A stretch of 20,009 nt of DNA. It comes from a virus. Below the pieces are notes generated by a model that was not told the origin of the DNA, did not search any database, and worked only from the letters and a program-made list of their open reading frames with translations. The stretch covers positions 1-20,009 of the IMG/VR virus record IMGVR_UViG_3300044638_009634. One strand, written 5' to 3'. The first letter of the stretch is position 1. Every line of letters starts with the position of its first letter. The position numbers and the translations under genes were made by a program. This document shows, piece by piece, positions 2,747-20,009 of the stretch.

Positions 2747-4492
2747 ATGGCAACTTTAGCAACTGTTCAAATACAATTTAAAAGCGTTGGTGGAAACCAA
2801 GTTAAAAAGGATACCAATGATATCTTAAACCTGATGAAAGGCTTAGGTGCTCAAATTGGTGTTGCTACTTCTTTGGCTGAGTTATTTACTCACGCTATTA
2901 TTGGTGCAGCTAAAGGAATTGCGCAGTTAACAGTTGCTGCATTTGAAAACTACAAATCTTTCGAAACTAATATCTCTGCTTTAGCAATGTATCAAACAAC
3001 TCTTGTTGGTACTTCTAATCAACTTCAAAGATTAAGAACATTATCATTAGAACCTGGTCTTTCTTTAGACCAAGTTTTAAAAGGTGTTACTTATCTTGAA
3101 GCAGCAGGTTTTTCAGCAAAAGTATCAGAAAGAGCTATAAAAGAATTTGGTAATGCACTAGCTTTAGCAGGAAAAGGTTCTGAAGACTTAGCAGGTGTTC
3201 AGTTAGCATTAGGTCAGATAAAAAGTAAGGGCATTATTTCTGCTGAAGAAATCAATCAAATTGCAGAGCGTGTTCCTCAAGTAAGAGCTGCTATTGTTAA
3301 AGCATTTGGAACTGGTAATACAAAAGCATTACAAGAAATGCAAATTCCAGCCACAGAGTTTATTACCAAAGTTACTGACCAATTAGCAAAGTTACAAAGA
3401 GCACCAAGAACCATTGCAAGTACTCTTAAAAATGTAACTGATTCATTTAAATACGCAAATATTATTATTGGAAAAGGTTTTAATGACATAATAAATGCAT
3501 CAGCAGGTTTTAATAACTTTAAACTATTCTTTGAAAACTTAAAACAGATATCAATGGAAATTTCAGGCATTTTATCTGGTTTTGCAAAGACAGAAGCTTT
3601 TAAAGAGATTCAAAGACAAATCCACGATACTTTAACTATTTTTCATTCTTTAATTCCAGGAATGGCTAGAAGTTTTGCTATTGGATTAGCATTTGTAACA
3701 TCATTTTCTATCGACTTAATGAAGATAGGAAACAGTATGTACAATTTTTTTGGACAACTATTTCACGAGCCAACAAAACTTTGGGAAAAAGAACTTAAAG
3801 CATTTTTAGATTTCTTTAACTTTGCATTTGTTGATGGTTTTCGAGTATTTTTTATTGAAATAGAGCTGGGTTTTACTAAGCTTAAAAGACTAGCTACTCT
3901 TCCAGGTACTCAAGCAAATAGGGAAGCTTCTAATAGAGTTGTTGAACTAGAGTTTCAAAAGAAGTTTATCAATAGAAGAATTGATGATGCTTTAGCTGGA
4001 AGAAGAGAAGGTCAACAAGGTTCTCCATTATATAAGATGCTTCAAAGAACAGCTGAAGGTCTTCAAGGTATGCTTCCTAGTATGACTGGAGACCAAAATA
4101 ATATCGTTTCAAAAGCATTAAATATTTATGACGATATTATGAAAAATGCTGGTTTTAACACTGTTTTACCAAGTGGATTAAAGCCTGGTGGAATGGGTCC
4201 AGTAACAGATACTATTGACAAAGGCAATGAAAAGAATGGTAAAAAGCTTGATTTGATTGTTCAGTCAACTCAAAAACAAGTTGAGCTTACACTTAGAAAC
4301 CTTACTTATGGTGGTGGAGAACTAGCCGCTCAAGGTTTATCTACTGTTCAAATGCAAAACTCTAAAACATATGGAAGAGCAACATCATCACCTGTTATTA
4401 ATGCTACAAATGATATAACTCGTGGTGTGGAAAAGATTGTTAGAGGCTATTCTGGTTCAAATAACTTAAACTTTAACTTTCGGAGGTCATAA
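2747..4492 (+). CDS. Tail tape-measure protein
   Basis: The 581-residue product is the ruler that sets tail length and is extruded through the tube at infection. Residues about 72-185 match the tape-measure N-terminal domain (TIGR02675-like): NQLQRLRTLSLEPGLSLDQV, then LALGQIKSKGIISAEEINQIAERVP, a well-known signature. Hydrophobic stretches at about 41-65 and near residues 305-325 fit the membrane-interacting segments seen in these proteins; the rest is largely helical. By the usual 0.15 nm per residue rule the tail would be roughly 85-90 nm, an inference. It begins right after the stop of the frameshifted chaperone, with a GGAAG 10 nt upstream, and its stop overlaps the next start in TAATG. 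Confidence 0.9.
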   Translation: MATLATVQIQFKSVGGNQVKKDTNDILNLMKGLGAQIGVATSLAELFTHAIIGAAKGIAQLTVAAFENYKSFETNISALAMYQTTLVGTSNQLQRLRTLSLEPGLSLDQVLKGVTYLEAAGFSAKVSERAIKEFGNALALAGKGSEDLAGVQLALGQIKSKGIISAEEINQIAERVPQVRAAIVKAFGTGNTKALQEMQIPATEFITKVTDQLAKLQRAPRTIASTLKNVTDSFKYANIIIGKGFNDIINASAGFNNFKLFFENLKQISMEISGILSGFAKTEAFKEIQRQIHDTLTIFHSLIPGMARSFAIGLAFVTSFSIDLMKIGNSMYNFFGQLFHEPTKLWEKELKAFLDFFNFAFVDGFRVFFIEIELGFTKLKRLATLPGTQANREASNRVVELEFQKKFINRRIDDALAGRREGQQGSPLYKMLQRTAEGLQGMLPSMTGDQNNIVSKALNIYDDIMKNAGFNTVLPSGLKPGGMGPVTDTIDKGNEKNGKKLDLIVQSTQKQVELTLRNLTYGGGELAAQGLSTVQMQNSKTYGRATSSPVINATNDITRGVEKIVRGYSGSNNLNFNFRRS

Positions 4493-7400
4493 TGCCAATA
4501 AGAGATAAGACCCTTGACGACCTAGATGTAAGAGTTTATGTTGATTATGCACAAGAACGTCAAAACACTTTAGGACCATACACCTTAGCCACAGATGGAA
4601 CACAACTTGATGCTGGTTCTGCTGTTAACTGTATTATTGACCCTGTAACTCTTTCTGTAATGGGAAAACCACTTCCTATGACAGCGGAATGGAATGATAA
4701 AACAACTCCCTGTTCTGGTCATTATTACAGATTTCAAATTTCAGACTTTACTTTTTCTGGAGCTGGTGGGTCTTCTAACTGGCGTAAAAATGACTATAGA
4801 AAAACAGGCGATACTTATATTGTTTGTAATGCTAGTGACCCTTTAATTACAGCTGCTACCGTAAGTTTAACTCAAGGTGTAAAGCGTAATGAACCACTCT
4901 TTCTTTCATATTCAAAATTAGCCAAGAAAGAACAAGATGACAGGCCTGCTATTAGTGTTTATTGGTCAAATGCTACTAACATTGACAGAGACTTAAAACT
5001 TAACTTTAAACACGATGGCTCTTGTGATGTCTTTCGTGGATATAAGAATCTTTCAGGAACAATAACCTCAAGCTCTTCATCTCAAACTGTTAATGGAATA
5101 AGTTCTAACTTTACTTATGAGTTAGTTTCTGGACAAAATCTATATGATTTTTATGGTCGATTGATAGGTGTTATTGATACTGTTAATAGCGATACTCAAC
5201 TAACATTACAATCAAATGCAGTTATTACTTTTGTTGGAAGATATTTTACTAATGCACTAGTAATTGATGCAGTAACAAAAATACAAATATCTGGTCCTGA
5301 AAAAATACAATCCTTTAGTCGTACTGAAAGCAACTATTCTAAAGGAAGACCAATATCAACAATTGCTAATCCTAATGACCAATATAATGATGTTTTTATT
5401 ATTCCTTGCCGTGGAAAAGAGTTATTAGTTTTAACATCTTATGGACTTAACTTTAGCATTAGTTTTCCTGACTTAAACTTACCAGACCCACCTGCAAATG
5501 TTAATGTTTATAATGCTCAAATACCTGCAGTTGAACCACCAAACATATCTTCTCAACCTATAATCACACCTTCAGGCACCTTTTCTATTCAAATACCTAA
5601 CGGAAAGGTTCAATTTCAGCTTGCAAAACTATACTTTTTGGACAACTGGAACATTACATCACAAAGGATTCAAACAGCTTCCAGTCCTCCAGCTTTGCCA
5701 ACTTATTTAACAGGAACATTATCTTGTGATTATGGCTCTTCCACTATTACTGGAACTGGCACATTATTTACCAGTGAAATATCTGCTGGTGACCGTATTT
5801 ATTATTACGATTCAAATAACTTACTTAATAGTATTTTTCTTGGCATCGTTAATGTTGTTACTAATGATACTACTTTTACTCTAACAACTGCAGCTCAAAA
5901 TAAACTTAATGATGCTACATTCTCAAAAGAAGCAGAGTTAGCAGGAACAATAGCTTGGACATTAGATTCTCAAATTGTTACTGGTACTGGAACTAACTTT
6001 AATCCTGAGATAAGTGTTGGTGATTGGCTCTATACAAGTGAAAACTATCTTATTGGTCAAGTAGCTCAAATAAATAGCGACACAGAGTTAGAGTTATTTG
6101 ATGTTGCAACTTATAGTGGTTCAGGCATTTTTTGGAAGAATCTTAATCAATACATTGAAAGATTTGTTAATCCACAAGTAGAGTTTTTCTCATCAGTATT
6201 ACCAACATCAACAGACACTTTAGGAATAGATTACAGTGTTCTTGATGGCAGTGGAAATGTAATAAATGGTGGAATCTTTAACAGTGTAAGAAATGAATTC
6301 AAACTTCAAATCTATCATTACAATGATGATGATTCTTCTGACACTGCATCTTCAGATAAGGGCTTTATGTTCTACTCTCTTGATGATGTTTATCTTTTAA
6401 GAAACTTATCAACAAGAGATAGTATTGCTGACATTACAGATGCATTAGAAACATTATCTATTAACAGACAAGAAGCTGGTCAACTTACTCTTAACTTGAG
6501 TGGAAGACAACAACTATTACAAGATGCAGGAATGGTTAATCCAGACCAAACTGCTAATAGACCAGTCAAAGTAATGTTAGAACCAAGACGTTTTATGCTT
6601 ACTGGAACTATTTCTAAGTCTGGTAATGATGTAGTAGGTATTAACACACTATTCCAATCAGAATTAAATGGATATTCTAAGCTTTATCTTCAGGATGGTA
6701 CTTTTATTGGTTATGTTAATAATATAACTAGTAATACAGCTCTTACACTTGTTACTCAAAATGCTAATAACTATGCAGATGTATCATATTCAGATGACCC
6801 GATTTATCAGCCTATTTCTCTTTTCGAAGGCTATCTTAACTCACCAGAAATCACTTATATCCAAGGACCTAATTTTGAAAAATATTCCTTGCTTGGTTTC
6901 GAGGCTATAGACAAGTTACAAAGATTAAATCAAGTTTACTATTCTGAAGCTCCAAATTTTGATTCTGTTAACTTAGAAAAGATATTTGGCGTTAATCTTA
7001 TCTATGCTGGTGCTGGGAACAATGACCCTAACAAAACTGATTTACAAGTAACAGATACTATCAATACCTATCAAATACCTATAAATAGAAACAACTCTAA
7101 TGGTCAATATAACTATGTTGCTAACCTTGGAGATAATGTAGGTGGTTATCTTGAAAAGTTAAGAAGTGACTATGCTCAAAACTTTACTTTGTTTTGTCGT
7201 GGCGCTTGGGTTCCTTCTCAATACAATCAAAATCAATATAATAACTTCTTCCAGTTTCAACTAAGAGATTTAGATTACATTGAAAACTTATTCGAAACTG
7301 TTCCAATGGATTTATTTCTTTCGGAATATGATGCTGAAAGTTTATTTGGTCTTCCTATTTATCAGTCTTACAAGCGTACTATTCGTGGTTTAAAAAGAGT

Positions 7401-12198: not shown

Positions 12199-12573
12199 TT
12201 ATACTATACTTAGATAATTTTTGATAGTCTTTATTCCATTTTCAGCATCAGTTACAACAACAAAAAGTGTTGGAATGTCGCTATGCTCATTGATTAATCT
12301 CGCATAATCTTTTTGCTCTGTGGACAATTTTCCTTTGAGAGTTTTAACTTCTATCCACAAACCAGCATAACCACCCTTTGCAACAGGAACAATCAAATCA
12401 TAAACTCCCCTTCTTAAACCCAGCTTTTTTAACCACGCCACAATTGAAAAAGACGTGCCAAAAAAACTATTTGGGCAATGAAAAATTGTCTTCAAAACTC
12501 TATACTCCTCCTCATTAGCCTTTATCCAGCTAACAATAGGAATATGCACATTTGATTCTGTTTCTCTTGCCAC
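12199..12573 (-). CDS. VRR-NUC domain nuclease
   Basis: This 124-residue protein matches the small stand-alone VRR-NUC family (PD-(D/E)XK fold), related to Holliday-junction resolvases and the FAN1 nuclease domain. Key positions are Asp59 in GLRRGVYDLIVP, Glu75 and Lys77 in GLWIEVKT and Gln87 in GKLSTEQ, in the usual D..ExK..Q order. In phages such enzymes are thought to process branched DNA during replication, recombination or packaging. It is encoded opposite to its neighbours, between a bidirectional terminator and a divergent promoter region. The only start upstream of the domain is GTG at 12573. It has no Shine-Dalgarno, and a -10-like box (TAGAAT) ends only 6 nt upstream, so the mRNA may be leaderless. 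Confidence 0.88.
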   Translation of the reverse strand: MARETESNVHIPIVSWIKANEEEYRVLKTIFHCPNSFFGTSFSIVAWLKKLGLRRGVYDLIVPVAKGGYAGLWIEVKTLKGKLSTEQKDYARLINEHSDIPTLFVVVTDAENGIKTIKNYLSIV

Positions 12574-12674: not shown

Positions 12675-13130
12675 GTGAATAAGTTTATCAAGATATTGGT
12701 TGATGTTAACAATGAATGGAACGAAGAGAATCCGTTCTACAAGGAAGATGCAAAGTTAGGTTTTTTTCCACTACCAGGAATTCATATCCTCATTGAAGAA
12801 AATGCTACTGACAAGATTAATCAAAAGTTATGGTTAATCAAGCCTAACAATGCAATCATATTAGAGAAAGATTTTATCTCTGGCAAAAAGCACTGTGATG
12901 TTTTTGAAATATCTGAAAGTGTAATGAAAGAGCTGGAAGAGATATATGTCTGGAACAAGGACAATGCTAATCATCAATTTCGTCCAAACTCCAGATTATT
13001 TTTAGGCACATTCAAAACCACTTATTATTTCAAAGAATTATATTTTGATTTTAATGAGAGCGTTTTCATTATCAACACTATGGTTGATAGTGGAGAACAG
13101 TTTTCTGCTAAGTTTGGAAAAGGAAAGTAA
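12675..13130 (+). CDS. Unknown protein, first gene of the rightward operon
   Basis: This 151-residue protein is not recognised. It is soluble, mixed alpha/beta and rich in Phe, Asn and Lys, with repeated aromatic beta strands (for example LWLIKPNNAIILEKDFI and KTTYYFKELYFDFNESVFIINTM) and no membrane segment, signal peptide or catalytic motif that I can identify. The start is GTG at 12675, with AAGGA 7 nt upstream and the consensus promoter at 12617-12645. It ends 4 nt before the ATPase start, so the two are probably co-transcribed and may act together in replication. Such position-based reasoning does not give a function; a replication accessory or host-takeover protein are both possible. 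Confidence 0.7.
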   Translation: MNKFIKILVDVNNEWNEENPFYKEDAKLGFFPLPGIHILIEENATDKINQKLWLIKPNNAIILEKDFISGKKHCDVFEISESVMKELEEIYVWNKDNANHQFRPNSRLFLGTFKTTYYFKELYFDFNESVFIINTMVDSGEQFSAKFGKGK

Positions 13131-13134
13131 AAAA

Positions 13135-14088
13135 ATGTTATTTAATAAATACAAAAGGACCAGTACGTTGAAAGCAAAGTATAGGAATGAACCCTATGAC
13201 AGATTTCTAATTGAAGATTTGATTGAAACCAACTCATTAAACCTTCTTGTTGCTCCATCATTTACAGGCAAAACATATGTTGCTATGGACATTTGTAGAG
13301 CGATTATCAATGGTTCAGATTTTTTAAACAAAGACTGTGAAAATGGAAGTGTTATTTATTTCGACAATGAAATGAAAGAAAAATACTTCTACAAGAGAAT
13401 GGAAAAGATTAACTTCCAAGATGATAATGACAACTTCATCTATTATAATAATGTTTTTCCAGACGTTAGTAATGAGAGTGAAAAACAATTCTTCATTGAA
13501 AAAATGAAAGAGTTTGTTGATGATGAAGGTGCTAATCTAATCGTTGTTGATTCACTTAACTCTAGTAGTAATGGATTAGATGAAAACTCTAACAAAGATA
13601 TGAGAGAGTTTATGGATTTCTTAAACCAAGTAAGTGCCATATGTACTGTTTTGGTAGTTCATCACACTTCAAAATACAACAATCCAAAATGCCTCACAAG
13701 AGAAGATATTAGAGGTGCTTCTTGTATTTTTAATATCTGTGACAACGTTTTTGTGATTGATAGCGATGATGATGTCAAAACATTTAAATCACTAAAGTCA
13801 AGAAATGCTGAAAAGTTACCAAAACCTATTCCTTTCAAATTTCAAAACTGTGGTGATGAGTTAGTTCTTATTACCACAGAACCAAAAGTTAAGGCTGAAA
13901 AACCATCAAAAGAGCAGGTTCTAGAGCTTTTTAAGGATAACAGTAACAAGACAGTTTTATTCAAGCATTTTCGAGATAATGGATTAGCTTTCACAGACCA
14001 ATGGATGACTAAGCTTTTAGAAACTATTCCACAAATAGACTCTAAGAAGGGTTTGAATAACTCCACCATTTTCTTCTTAAAAAGTTAG
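13135..14088 (+). CDS. RepA/KaiC-like AAA_25 ATPase, probable replicative helicase
   Basis: This 317-residue protein has the RecA-fold core of RepA-type hexameric helicases (AAA_25). Walker A is APSFTGKT (residues 40-47), a likely catalytic acidic motif YFDNEM follows at 75-80, Walker B is NLIVVDS (134-140), the HH motif VLVVHHTSK is at 172-180, and RGAS at 193-196 corresponds to the conserved loop of this family. The C-terminal 60 or so residues (from SKEQVLELFKD) form a helical domain that may bind DNA or a partner. It would unwind DNA or load the replication machinery. The ATG at 13135 is preferred: AGGA (13121-13124) lies 10 nt upstream and an in-frame start at 13045 would lie inside the preceding gene. 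No primase domain is fused and no polymerase is in the window. Confidence 0.85.
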   Translation: MLFNKYKRTSTLKAKYRNEPYDRFLIEDLIETNSLNLLVAPSFTGKTYVAMDICRAIINGSDFLNKDCENGSVIYFDNEMKEKYFYKRMEKINFQDDNDNFIYYNNVFPDVSNESEKQFFIEKMKEFVDDEGANLIVVDSLNSSSNGLDENSNKDMREFMDFLNQVSAICTVLVVHHTSKYNNPKCLTREDIRGASCIFNICDNVFVIDSDDDVKTFKSLKSRNAEKLPKPIPFKFQNCGDELVLITTEPKVKAEKPSKEQVLELFKDNSNKTVLFKHFRDNGLAFTDQWMTKLLETIPQIDSKKGLNNSTIFFLKS

Positions 14089-14091
14089 TTA

Positions 14092-14132
14092 AGCGGTTAT
14101 GCGGTTCTGCTTATATAGTAATACCGCAGAAC
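14092..14132 (+). repeat. GCGGTT direct/inverted repeats with alternative stems
   Basis: Two direct copies at 8-nt spacing (AGCGGTT 14092-14098 and TGCGGTT 14100-14106) face an inverted copy (ACCGCA, 14123-14128). The overlapping pair GTTCTGC (14104-14110) and GCAGAAC (14126-14132) makes a competing 7-bp stem. This could be iteron-like protein binding sites or a switchable RNA fold. Confidence 0.55.
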
Positions 14133-14149
14133 TAATTCTCTTCTATAAT

Positions 14150-14168
14150 TGGCCAGAGACTCTGGCCA
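14150..14168. promoter_or_regulatory. 19-bp perfect palindrome, operator-like
   Basis: TGGCCAGAG, one central A, then CTCTGGCCA form a perfect 9-1-9 dyad. A one-base spacer suits a dimeric DNA-binding protein better than a hairpin. It lies just right of a TATAAT (14144-14149), so it would overlap a transcript start if that box is used, though no good -35 is seen. Confidence 0.6.
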
Positions 14169-14190
14169 TATGTTATTAGGATAAGAAAAG

Positions 14191-14208
14191 CAAAACCTAA
14201 AGGTTTTG
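14191..14208. repeat. 8-bp inverted repeat
   Basis: CAAAACCT (14191-14198) and AGGTTTTG (14201-14208) are separated by two A residues. It may be a DNA-binding site or a small hairpin with a tetraloop. Confidence 0.5.
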
Positions 14209-14219
14209 AAGCGTTACCA

Positions 14220-14252
14220 ATGACCAGTACTTCTTAAAATCGTACTGGTCAT
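14220..14252. repeat. 11-bp perfect stem-loop
   Basis: ATGACCAGTAC (14220-14230) pairs perfectly with GTACTGGTCAT (14242-14252) around an 11-nt AT-rich loop. It is not followed by a T run, so it is not a typical terminator. Confidence 0.65.
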
Positions 14253-14319
14253 AAACACCACTCAAAAAGGATATTTTTGGATAATAATCTTGGTTTGGAT
14301 AGAGAAAAAGAACCAAAGA

Positions 14320-14328
14320 TGTTATAAT
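14320..14328 (+). promoter_or_regulatory. Extended -10 promoter of the regulator/sigma operon
   Basis: The box TG-T-TATAAT (TATAAT at 14323-14328) is a consensus extended -10. There is no -35 at the normal distance. The TTGGTT/AACCAA dyad (14290-14295 with 14311-14316) lies just upstream and partly in the spacer, where a regulator could bind. Confidence 0.65.
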
Positions 14329-14338
14329 AGTAGTGATA

Positions 14339-14344
14339 AGAGGA
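14339..14344 (+). promoter_or_regulatory. Ribosome binding site deciding the XRE gene start
   Basis: AGAGGA lies 8 nt before the ATG at 14353. It supports this start over a longer reading frame that begins at 14290, upstream of the promoter. Confidence 0.75.
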
Positions 14345-14352
14345 ATAGTAAG

Positions 14353-14565
14353 ATGCAAAAACAAGATATGCTAATAACCAGTTTAACACAAGTAGAACTA
14401 GCAGATAAGTTAGGTGTTTCTCAACCGTTGATAAGTAAGTGGATGAGTGGAAAATGTATGCCTAGAGTTAAAACCATTAGGAAAATAGCTCAAGCAACAG
14501 GATGTACTGAAGAAGAGTTACTAATGTACTTGTATGCAAAAAATAAAGAACTGGCGAGACTTTAA
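14353..14565 (+). CDS. XRE-family helix-turn-helix regulator
   Basis: This 70-residue protein is almost entirely a lambda-repressor-like HTH domain. The positioning helix is TQVELADKLG (residues 12-21) and the recognition helix is SQPLISKWMSG (23-33), followed by MPRVKTIRKIAQATGCTEEELL, the usual third and fourth helices. It is too short to carry a dimerisation or peptidase domain, as in Cro-like or small excise-type regulators. It is preceded by an extended -10 promoter and a group of palindromes that are candidate operators, and its end overlaps the sigma-factor gene by 32 nt, which suggests coupled translation. An autoregulator of the sigma operon is a reasonable guess. The N-terminal longer form is rejected because of the promoter position. 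Confidence 0.85.
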   Translation: MQKQDMLITSLTQVELADKLGVSQPLISKWMSGKCMPRVKTIRKIAQATGCTEEELLMYLYAKNKELARL

Positions 14566-15301
14566 CTGGTCTAGAAATAACAAAAATGGAAACCTCTCTT
14601 TTGAAGAAGAGGTTTTCTTGTGTTATGAAGTTAACAATGGCAATAGAGAAAAAGCATTAAACATTCTCATTGACCAAAACATTAATATGGTGCATAAGAT
14701 ATCCAAAAAATACTTATGGTGTAATATTCTTTACGAAGACTTATTACAATATGGAGTTGAAGGACTAATATCTGCTGCTCAAAACTTTGTTCCTGAAAAA
14801 GGTTACAAATACAATACTCTTGCTGGTCATTATGTTTTAGGTCGCATAAGAAGAGCTATTGAACAACACAATAGAATTATAAAAGTACCTGCTCACGTTA
14901 ACTTAGCCACATTAAAACTACTTGATATTGAAACTGAAAAGGAAGTAACAGATGAAATGCTACTTCCAATGGTTAACAAGAGAACCACACTTAATACTCT
15001 CAAATCAGCAGTGGAAGTTAAAAATACTCAAATATTAGAGATTGATTCTATTTTCCAAATAAGTGATGCTAAACTGGAAATAGATGAAAAAAAGATAGCA
15101 ATAGAACAAATATTACAAACCTTAAGACCAATCGAAATCACTTGCATTAAACTCAAATTTGGTCTTGATAATAATCTCTCTCTCACATACAAAGAAATAG
15201 ACAAAATAGTTAGTGCTGATTCTGAAGGTCTAATCAACAGGGCTATGATAAAACTTAGGAATATCGAGGGAATAGAGGAATTCCTAAGATATTTAAAGTA
15301 A
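14534..15301 (+). CDS. Phage-encoded sigma70-family RNA polymerase sigma factor
   Basis: The 255-residue product would redirect host RNA polymerase to phage promoters. Region 2 spans about residues 41-122: NMVHKISKKY, then EDLLQYGVEGLISAAQNF, PEKGYKYNTLAGHYVLGRIRRAIEQHN and IIKVPAHV, closely following the RpoD pattern ([28 protein letters not shown]...IRLPVH). Region 4 is about 188-250: EQILQTLRPIEITCIKLKFGL, then LTYKEIDKIVSADSEGLINRAMIKLR in place of the usual TLEEIG...RERIRQIEAKALRKLR. Region 1.1 is absent and region 3 is short. The start at 14534 overlaps the XRE gene by 32 nt and has no clear Shine-Dalgarno; a TAA at 14522 limits any upstream start. It is likely the regulator of late transcription, but its target promoter is unknown. 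Confidence 0.88.
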   Translation: MQKIKNWRDFNWSRNNKNGNLSFEEEVFLCYEVNNGNREKALNILIDQNINMVHKISKKYLWCNILYEDLLQYGVEGLISAAQNFVPEKGYKYNTLAGHYVLGRIRRAIEQHNRIIKVPAHVNLATLKLLDIETEKEVTDEMLLPMVNKRTTLNTLKSAVEVKNTQILEIDSIFQISDAKLEIDEKKIAIEQILQTLRPIEITCIKLKFGLDNNLSLTYKEIDKIVSADSEGLINRAMIKLRNIEGIEEFLRYLK

Positions 15302-19794: not shown

Positions 19795-19819
19795 TATTCT
19801 AACCTTTCCTAACACTCTT

Positions 19820-19849
19820 ATATTACCATACTTGCATATAAATAATCAA
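19820..19849 (-). promoter_or_regulatory. Probable promoter of the minus-strand pair
   Basis: Read on the minus strand, TTGATT (19849-19844) and TAATAT (19825-19820) are 18 nt apart, with TGG directly before the -10 making an extended form. It sits between a terminator upstream and the first gene's ribosome binding site. Confidence 0.65.
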
Positions 19850-19850
19850 G

Positions 19851-19880
19851 AAAAAACCCCTATATTTCAAGGGGTTTTTT
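19851..19880. terminator. Bidirectional Rho-independent terminator
   Basis: A GC-rich stem CCCCT / AGGGG, extended by paired A and T tracts (arms 19851-19861 and 19870-19880), surrounds an 8-nt loop. It ends the partial minus-strand gene at the right edge and insulates the following promoter. Confidence 0.9.
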
Positions 19881-19881
19881 T

Positions 19882-20007
19882 TCACTTACTTTCTAAATAG
19901 TCTTGCACTGCTTTAAGAACTTCAGCATCGTTTTTACATTTCAGTGCAATTCTTTTAATTGCATTCAGCTGTATTTTTTCACTTGTATTCTCAAGCATAG
20001 CCAATTC
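19882..20007 (-). CDS. 3' end of an unknown gene (5' end outside window)
   Basis: The minus-strand frame is open to the right edge and codes for 41 visible residues ending in AEVLKAVQDYLESK before a TGA at 19884-19882, right beside a terminator. It is helical and rich in Lys, Leu and Glu (ENTSEKIQLNAIKRIALKCKND). The frame is judged coding because the other two minus-strand frames are closed by stops and because the stop is followed at once by the terminator. Too little is visible to assign a function. Confidence 0.55.
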   Translation of the reverse strand, partial: ELAMLENTSEKIQLNAIKRIALKCKNDAEVLKAVQDYLESK

Positions 20008-20009
20008 AT

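Follow-up and report, generated by a model that had tools for sequence, protein, structure and literature searches.

A candidate replication origin in a family of uncultured phages: the hairpin cluster that follows a RepA-like helicase gene

Introduction

The complementary-strand origin of the single-stranded DNA phage G4 holds several hairpins within ~130 nt that are usable by the host primase. Replication of the Sulfolobus plasmid pRN1 needs a stem-loop that begins 54 bp downstream of the replication gene; the terminator that lies between the two is dispensable. The stem-loop is conserved in structure more than in sequence, and the plasmid's replication protein has a winged helix at its C-terminus (PMC4234260, PMC3869888). 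A similar stem-loop has been proposed 3' of the replication gene in phage BIP-1/BPP-1 (PMC4234260, PMC3869888). Replication of RSF1010 involves RepC as the iteron-binding protein, RepA for unwinding and RepB' as the primase at the ssiA and ssiB stem-loops (PMC6925257, PMC4234260).

Here we analyse a cluster of inverted repeats that follows the gene of a RepA-like ATPase in a 20,009-nt stretch of viral DNA (IMG/VR record IMGVR_UViG_3300044638_009634; hereafter the window). We consider it likely that this cluster is the replication origin of the phage, a cis-acting DNA element placed immediately after the gene of its own replicative helicase; the origin function itself we infer from sequence comparison.

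On paper, the element resembles the pRN1 and RSF1010 origins in layout. As in pRN1, a structured region lies directly 3' of the replication gene (six of six lineages compared here), a terminator stands between the gene and the stem-loop (four of six), and the stems are kept while the sequence changes. The C-terminal winged helix of the pRN1 protein may have a counterpart here in an H-H-H-β-β unit that is seen in an AlphaFold model and has no match in Pfam. The pRN1 origin, however, is a single stem-loop of 100 nt served by a protein with prim-pol and SF3 helicase parts, whereas this locus has several short hairpins with 8-bp tandem repeats and a 317-aa AAA_25 RecA-fold ATPase without a primase domain. 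Shared with the RSF1010/IncQ oriV are the RepA-family helicase (PDB 1g8y is the closest solved structure by sequence; the hexameric state is putative here), the repeats in the origin, and the stem-loops, which are exposed as priming sites there and putatively so here. Unlike RSF1010/IncQ, the locus has no ~20-bp RepC-type iterons and no recognised RepC or RepB' primase, and the element lies 3' of the helicase gene. Because of these differences, the element belongs to neither the pRN1 nor the RSF1010 family. It is also like the G4 complementary-strand origin in having several hairpins that a host primase could use, although G4 is a ssDNA phage.

Results

The interval under study (14089-14352) extends from the stop codon of the ATPase gene (ORF to 14088) to the ATG of an XRE gene at 14353, and the sigma-70-like gene that follows overlaps this small XRE regulator gene. 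The features of the region are as follows.

12675..13130, + strand: small protein that shares the operon of the ATPase, gene conserved 5' of the ATPase gene (homologues in contigs L005, L016, L018, L019 and L094)
13135..14088, + strand: RepA-like (RSF1010-type) RecA-fold ATPase with a predicted C-terminal winged-helix-like domain at residues 258-315, from profile and model
14092..14110, + strand: element A, 8-bp tandem repeat AGCGGTTA/TGCGGTTC/TGC from the stop codon, at the same place in six lineages
14104..14132, no strand: hairpin GTTCTGC/GCAGAAC, arms changed yet matching in L016 and L094
14139..14269, no strand: block with 83% identity to the DNA that follows the inverted ATPase gene of L016
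14150..14168, no strand: element C, 19-nt palindrome TGGCCAGAGACTCTGGCCA, in six lineages with two-sided changes at 4 of 8 pairs
14191..14208, no strand: hairpin CAAAACCT/AGGTTTTG, with a counterpart in L016
14220..14252, no strand: 11-bp hairpin ATGACCAGTAC/GTACTGGTCAT, with an L016 counterpart that has one mismatch
14287..14320, no strand: TTGGTT/AACCAA pair (14290-14316) ahead of the -10, without a visible counterpart in relatives
14300..14328, + strand: XRE/sigma operon promoter, extended -10 TGTTATAAT, with the -10 at 14323-14328
14353..15301, + strand: XRE regulator (14353-14565) and sigma-70-like factor (14534-15301)

Re-reading of the sequence recovered, each in its place, all of the inverted repeats that a first-pass annotation had listed. 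GCGGTT copies are found at 14093-14098 and 14101-14106 with an inverted partner within 14123-14132; this group had been described as direct and inverted repeats and is really a period-8 tandem repeat running from the ATPase stop codon, and its second copy also supplies the 5' side of a hairpin of 7 bp (14104-14110/14126-14132). The 264 nt hold three perfect hairpins (arms of at least 8, loop of at most 15); dinucleotide shuffles hold 0.02 on average, and none of them (0/2000) had as many as three. Across all 20 kb of the window there are nine such hairpins, several being ordinary terminators. The RNA fold of the interval gives z-scores of -5.0 on the + strand and -4.8 on the - strand. The repeats of the proposed five-repeat cluster are real, but the conserved unit spans ~14089-14269 and not the whole interval. 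TATAAT is found just 5' of the matching operon in those relatives that were read; the TTGGTT/AACCAA pair, present beside the promoter in the window, has no obvious counterpart by eye at the promoters of relatives and probably lies outside the conserved element.

Named phage records gave no DNA-level match to the window and only distant protein matches. The IMG/VR contigs include one record, L003, that is almost the same as the window (98%), as well as a family that shares the XRE-sigma-TerS-TerL gene order. L003 is 100% identical to the window over 13883 to 14730 and so gives no covariation. Six divergent lineages bear the ATPase, namely the window, L005, L016, L018, L019 and L094, and the five other ATPases are 30-45% identical to the window protein. 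A dense hairpin region lies directly 3' of the ATPase stop codon in every lineage; its fold z-scores range from -4.6 to -6.9 for the strand of the gene and from -4.1 to -7.1 for the opposite strand. Whole-region MAFFT alignment of the window with L005 misaligned most hairpins, and elements were compared singly instead. Several further features of these contigs were observed. Positions 19798-20009 of the window are 92% identical to L020, a mosaic patch where other shared regions are mostly 64-79% identical; positions 1-75 of L016 form a perfect inverted repeat (arms of 37 bp, centre of 1 nt), which, at a contig end, is probably an assembly artefact; and a conserved acidic protein of ~80 aa is encoded between the promoter and the XRE gene in most relatives (for example L004:1246-1482, L005:1795-2085 and L094:1748-1995), with no copy found in the window or in L018.

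The elements keep their order and pairing as their sequences change. Element A recurs as a period-8 GCGGTT-like tandem repeat at the stop codon in all six lineages (p from <0.001 to 0.11 each), and the first hairpin occupies the same place with changed but matching arms in L016 (GGTTCGTC/GACGAACC) and L094 (GGTTATTC/GAATAACC). Taken over 17 nt, the palindrome reads GGCCAGAGACTCTGGCC in the window and L016, GGCTCGAGACTCGAGCC in L019, GGCTCGAGCTTCGAGCC in L005, GGCCAGAGCTTCTGACC in L018 and TGCTCGAAATTCGAGCA in L094, and a pattern scan with the window-type palindrome matched L003 and L016 only. Four of its eight pairs are altered on both sides among the lineages, and 97.5% of the cells of the alignment pair, versus 83% when shuffled and at most 48% when slid. 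Uncompensated drift of the arms, which the first-pass annotation had taken as the sign that would speak against its proposal, was not seen: palindrome and first hairpin keep pairing. Symmetric change alone does not prove single-strand folding, because a double-stranded palindrome could behave likewise as the dimeric protein that reads it changes. Direct repeats of 10-12 bp follow the palindrome in L094, L019 and L005 (p ≤0.008) and, more weakly, in L016 and L018, and further hairpins close the element.

The main alternative is that the cluster acts as structured non-coding RNA, whether as the 3' tail of the helicase mRNA or as a small RNA of its own, and might for example control helicase expression or replication. 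The strong fold z-scores, the survival of the stems through sequence change, the nearly end-to-end packing of hairpins in L005, L019 and L094, and the conservation of loops and linkers along with the stems between the window and L016 would all suit such a molecule. Selection on one RNA strand is, however, expected to favour wobble on that strand, and G-T pairs make up 19 of the 422 confident pairs (span ≤70 nt) formed by the ATPase strand and 19 of the 435 formed by its complement; folding is equally strong on both strands. In L005, L018, L019 and L094, moreover, an intrinsic terminator lies between the gene and the palindrome (none is present in the window or L016), and the ~20-30 bp from terminator to palindrome in these four is too short for a full promoter and start; no conserved promoter reading into the element was found among the six lineages. 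Rfam searches with the window and five relatives returned no match, and a known Rfam RNA or tRNA identity was rejected. The lack of a wobble strand preference, together with the terminator and the absence of a promoter reading in, indirectly favours action as DNA rather than RNA, and we consider the RNA explanation unlikely.

The layout of L016 tells a link with the helicase apart from a link with the XRE operon. In this contig the ATPase and its upstream partner lie on the opposite strand, divergent from the XRE operon, and the cluster is still 3' of the ATPase stop, beyond the inverted gene and ~1.5 kb from the XRE promoter. Window positions 14139-14269 are 83% identical to it over 131 nt, while the ATPases share only ~33% of residues. 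Because the element moves with the inverted ATPase, it belongs to the helicase and not to the XRE/sigma promoter, and the XRE and sigma genes are its neighbours, not its partners. This bears directly on the suggestion that the repeats are protein-binding operators, for XRE or other proteins, that control the XRE/sigma operon, a suggestion that draws on the adjoining XRE gene and on the proximity of the 19-nt palindrome and repeats to an extended -10 promoter. The sites do not stay with that promoter in L016, relatives that encode 50-60% identical XRE proteins and lack the ATPase have no palindrome, and the promoter-side TTGGTT/AACCAA pair is without evident counterpart; an XRE operator cluster was rejected on the first two grounds, and we judge operators of any kind very improbable. 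An RNA leader of the XRE operon, also raised in the first-pass annotation, is ruled out in its simple form by a promoter that sits 3' of the hairpins (-10 at 14323) and by the distance of the cluster from the promoter in L016. About as improbable is a terminator array insulating the helicase gene from the next operon. The palindrome, like the CAAAACC hairpin, scores as terminator-like in the window, but it is not followed by a good run of T and, in the four lineages that have a real terminator here, comes after it; nor does insulation call for 8-bp repeats, several distinct hairpins or a block that stays 83% identical next to a gene that changes fast.

The start of the ATPase (13135) was picked from the alignment and gives a product of 317 aa. 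The protein matches AAA_25 (4e-26) and, in a profile search, RSF1010 RepA, PDB 1g8y (3e-7). Its AlphaFold model (pLDDT 80, six sequences) shows a RecA-type core followed by a C-terminal H-H-H-β-β unit, and Foldseek ranks KaiC, DnaB-type and RepA helicases first. The C-terminal unit reads as a predicted winged helix; Pfam searches of this region alone gave nothing significant. Compared with L003, the ATPase core is 11.6% divergent and the C-terminal domain and element are 0% divergent, with the break at the linker near residue 250, a single event that fits a C-terminal domain tied to the element. The divergent tract itself (window 13091-13882) ends sharply at the linker between nearly identical flanks, which points to a domain-level recombination swap. 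Since the C-terminal domains of the window and L016 are only 29% identical, versus 83% for the DNA block, the ATPase itself may not read this block, or the block may be the product of a recent exchange. The small protein encoded upstream has a predicted β4-α-β4 fold for which the best Foldseek match is PUR-alpha (probability 0.97, TM-score 0.23-0.29), a lead only that the protein may be weakly PUR-alpha-like and perhaps a phage single-strand-binding protein. The ORF lists of the 32-kb L016 and L018 contigs, which are possibly incomplete, and ten unassigned ORFs contained no recognisable primase, polymerase, separate initiator, RepC or RepB'.

Where the ATPase is missing, its slot holds other, rep-like genes, mostly with 21-22-bp iterons in front of them and no comparable hairpin cluster, and the palindrome is absent from those relatives examined (L004, L007, L008, L015, L020 and L021). 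One rep-like family fills the slot in L004, L007, L008 and L015. Four clear copies of a 21-bp iteron lie upstream of this gene in L004 (305-409) and L008 (5168-5272), a weak 21-bp repeat does so in L015 (p 0.007), and L007 shows no hairpin cluster and no clear iteron array. A second rep-like type in L020 and L021 has 22-bp repeats directly upstream (4433-4517 and 4945-5022, respectively). The rep-like genes matched no replication family; because of the iterons and their position, they are read as putative replication initiators. In the window interval, the best tandem score for 15-26-bp repeats has p 0.14, leaving the 8-bp repeats only. The window also encodes a Holliday-junction-resolvase/endonuclease-like protein beside the replication slot (12199-12573, - strand), with homologues in L007 and L015, both of which carry the other replication module.

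Hairpins were also surveyed 3' of AAA_25 helicase genes in general, using 25 loci that were non-redundant after 60% clustering and 225 other gene ends from the same contigs as controls. At least two perfect hairpins within 300 nt downstream, counted unfiltered, were present at 8 of 25 AAA_25 loci versus 5 of 225 other ends (p 3e-6), and at 4 of 20 loci when the six focal loci were left out (p 0.003). Removal of terminator-like hairpins with a T-run filter left 5 of 25 versus 4 of 225 (p 0.0006), and 3 of 20 once the focal loci were again set aside (p 0.013). Distant AAA_25 genes (frames of 576-871 aa) are followed within 300 nt by two to three perfect hairpins in L139 (after 3239), L154 (after 5963), L147 (after 5969) and L141 (after 6023), and some of these use a repeated arm, such as CGTTGCA in L139.

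Discussion

Among the three explanations put forward in the first-pass annotation, a replication origin is the best supported. Several observations argue for it: the hairpin region follows the ATPase stop codon in six lineages and moves with the inverted gene; iteron-type modules replace it in most ATPase-less relatives examined; the palindrome is kept through two-sided changes and is accompanied by 8-bp repeats at the stop codon; the ATPase is RSF1010 RepA-like with a predicted C-terminal winged helix, and this domain and the element are together undiverged from L003; G-T pairs show no strand bias and a terminator precedes the palindrome in four lineages; and hairpins are enriched after AAA_25 genes, with pRN1 and RSF1010 as mapped precedents. 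GC skew, which is confounded by gene direction, leaves the site unmarked.

As an origin, the element might work as follows. The predicted winged-helix-like C-terminal domain of the ATPase, or a partner, would bind the 8-bp GCGGTT repeats, and the hexameric RecA-fold ring would load and open AT-rich DNA. The exposed single strand would then fold into the palindrome and the hairpins that follow, which would offer start sites to a primase, probably that of the host, as none was recognised in the phage. The small, weakly PUR-like upstream protein could hold the single strand.

A broader proposal, which we advance tentatively and think possible rather than probable, is that of a minimal replicon in which the RepA-like helicase (with the small PUR-like partner) and the hairpin array suffice, with no phage iteron-binding initiator or primase and with host enzymes priming. 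It would be one of several interchangeable cassettes in this uncultured phage family, and helicase-plus-3'-hairpin origins would be widespread in phages with AAA_25 helicases.

Origins are rarely known for uncultured phages, and the rule of a hairpin cluster behind the gene of a RepA-like helicase allows testable origins to be predicted from sequence, as does its complement, that 21-22-bp iterons are expected instead where another rep-like gene is present. If the element is an origin, the pRN1/BIP-1 layout would also occur with another helicase superfamily.
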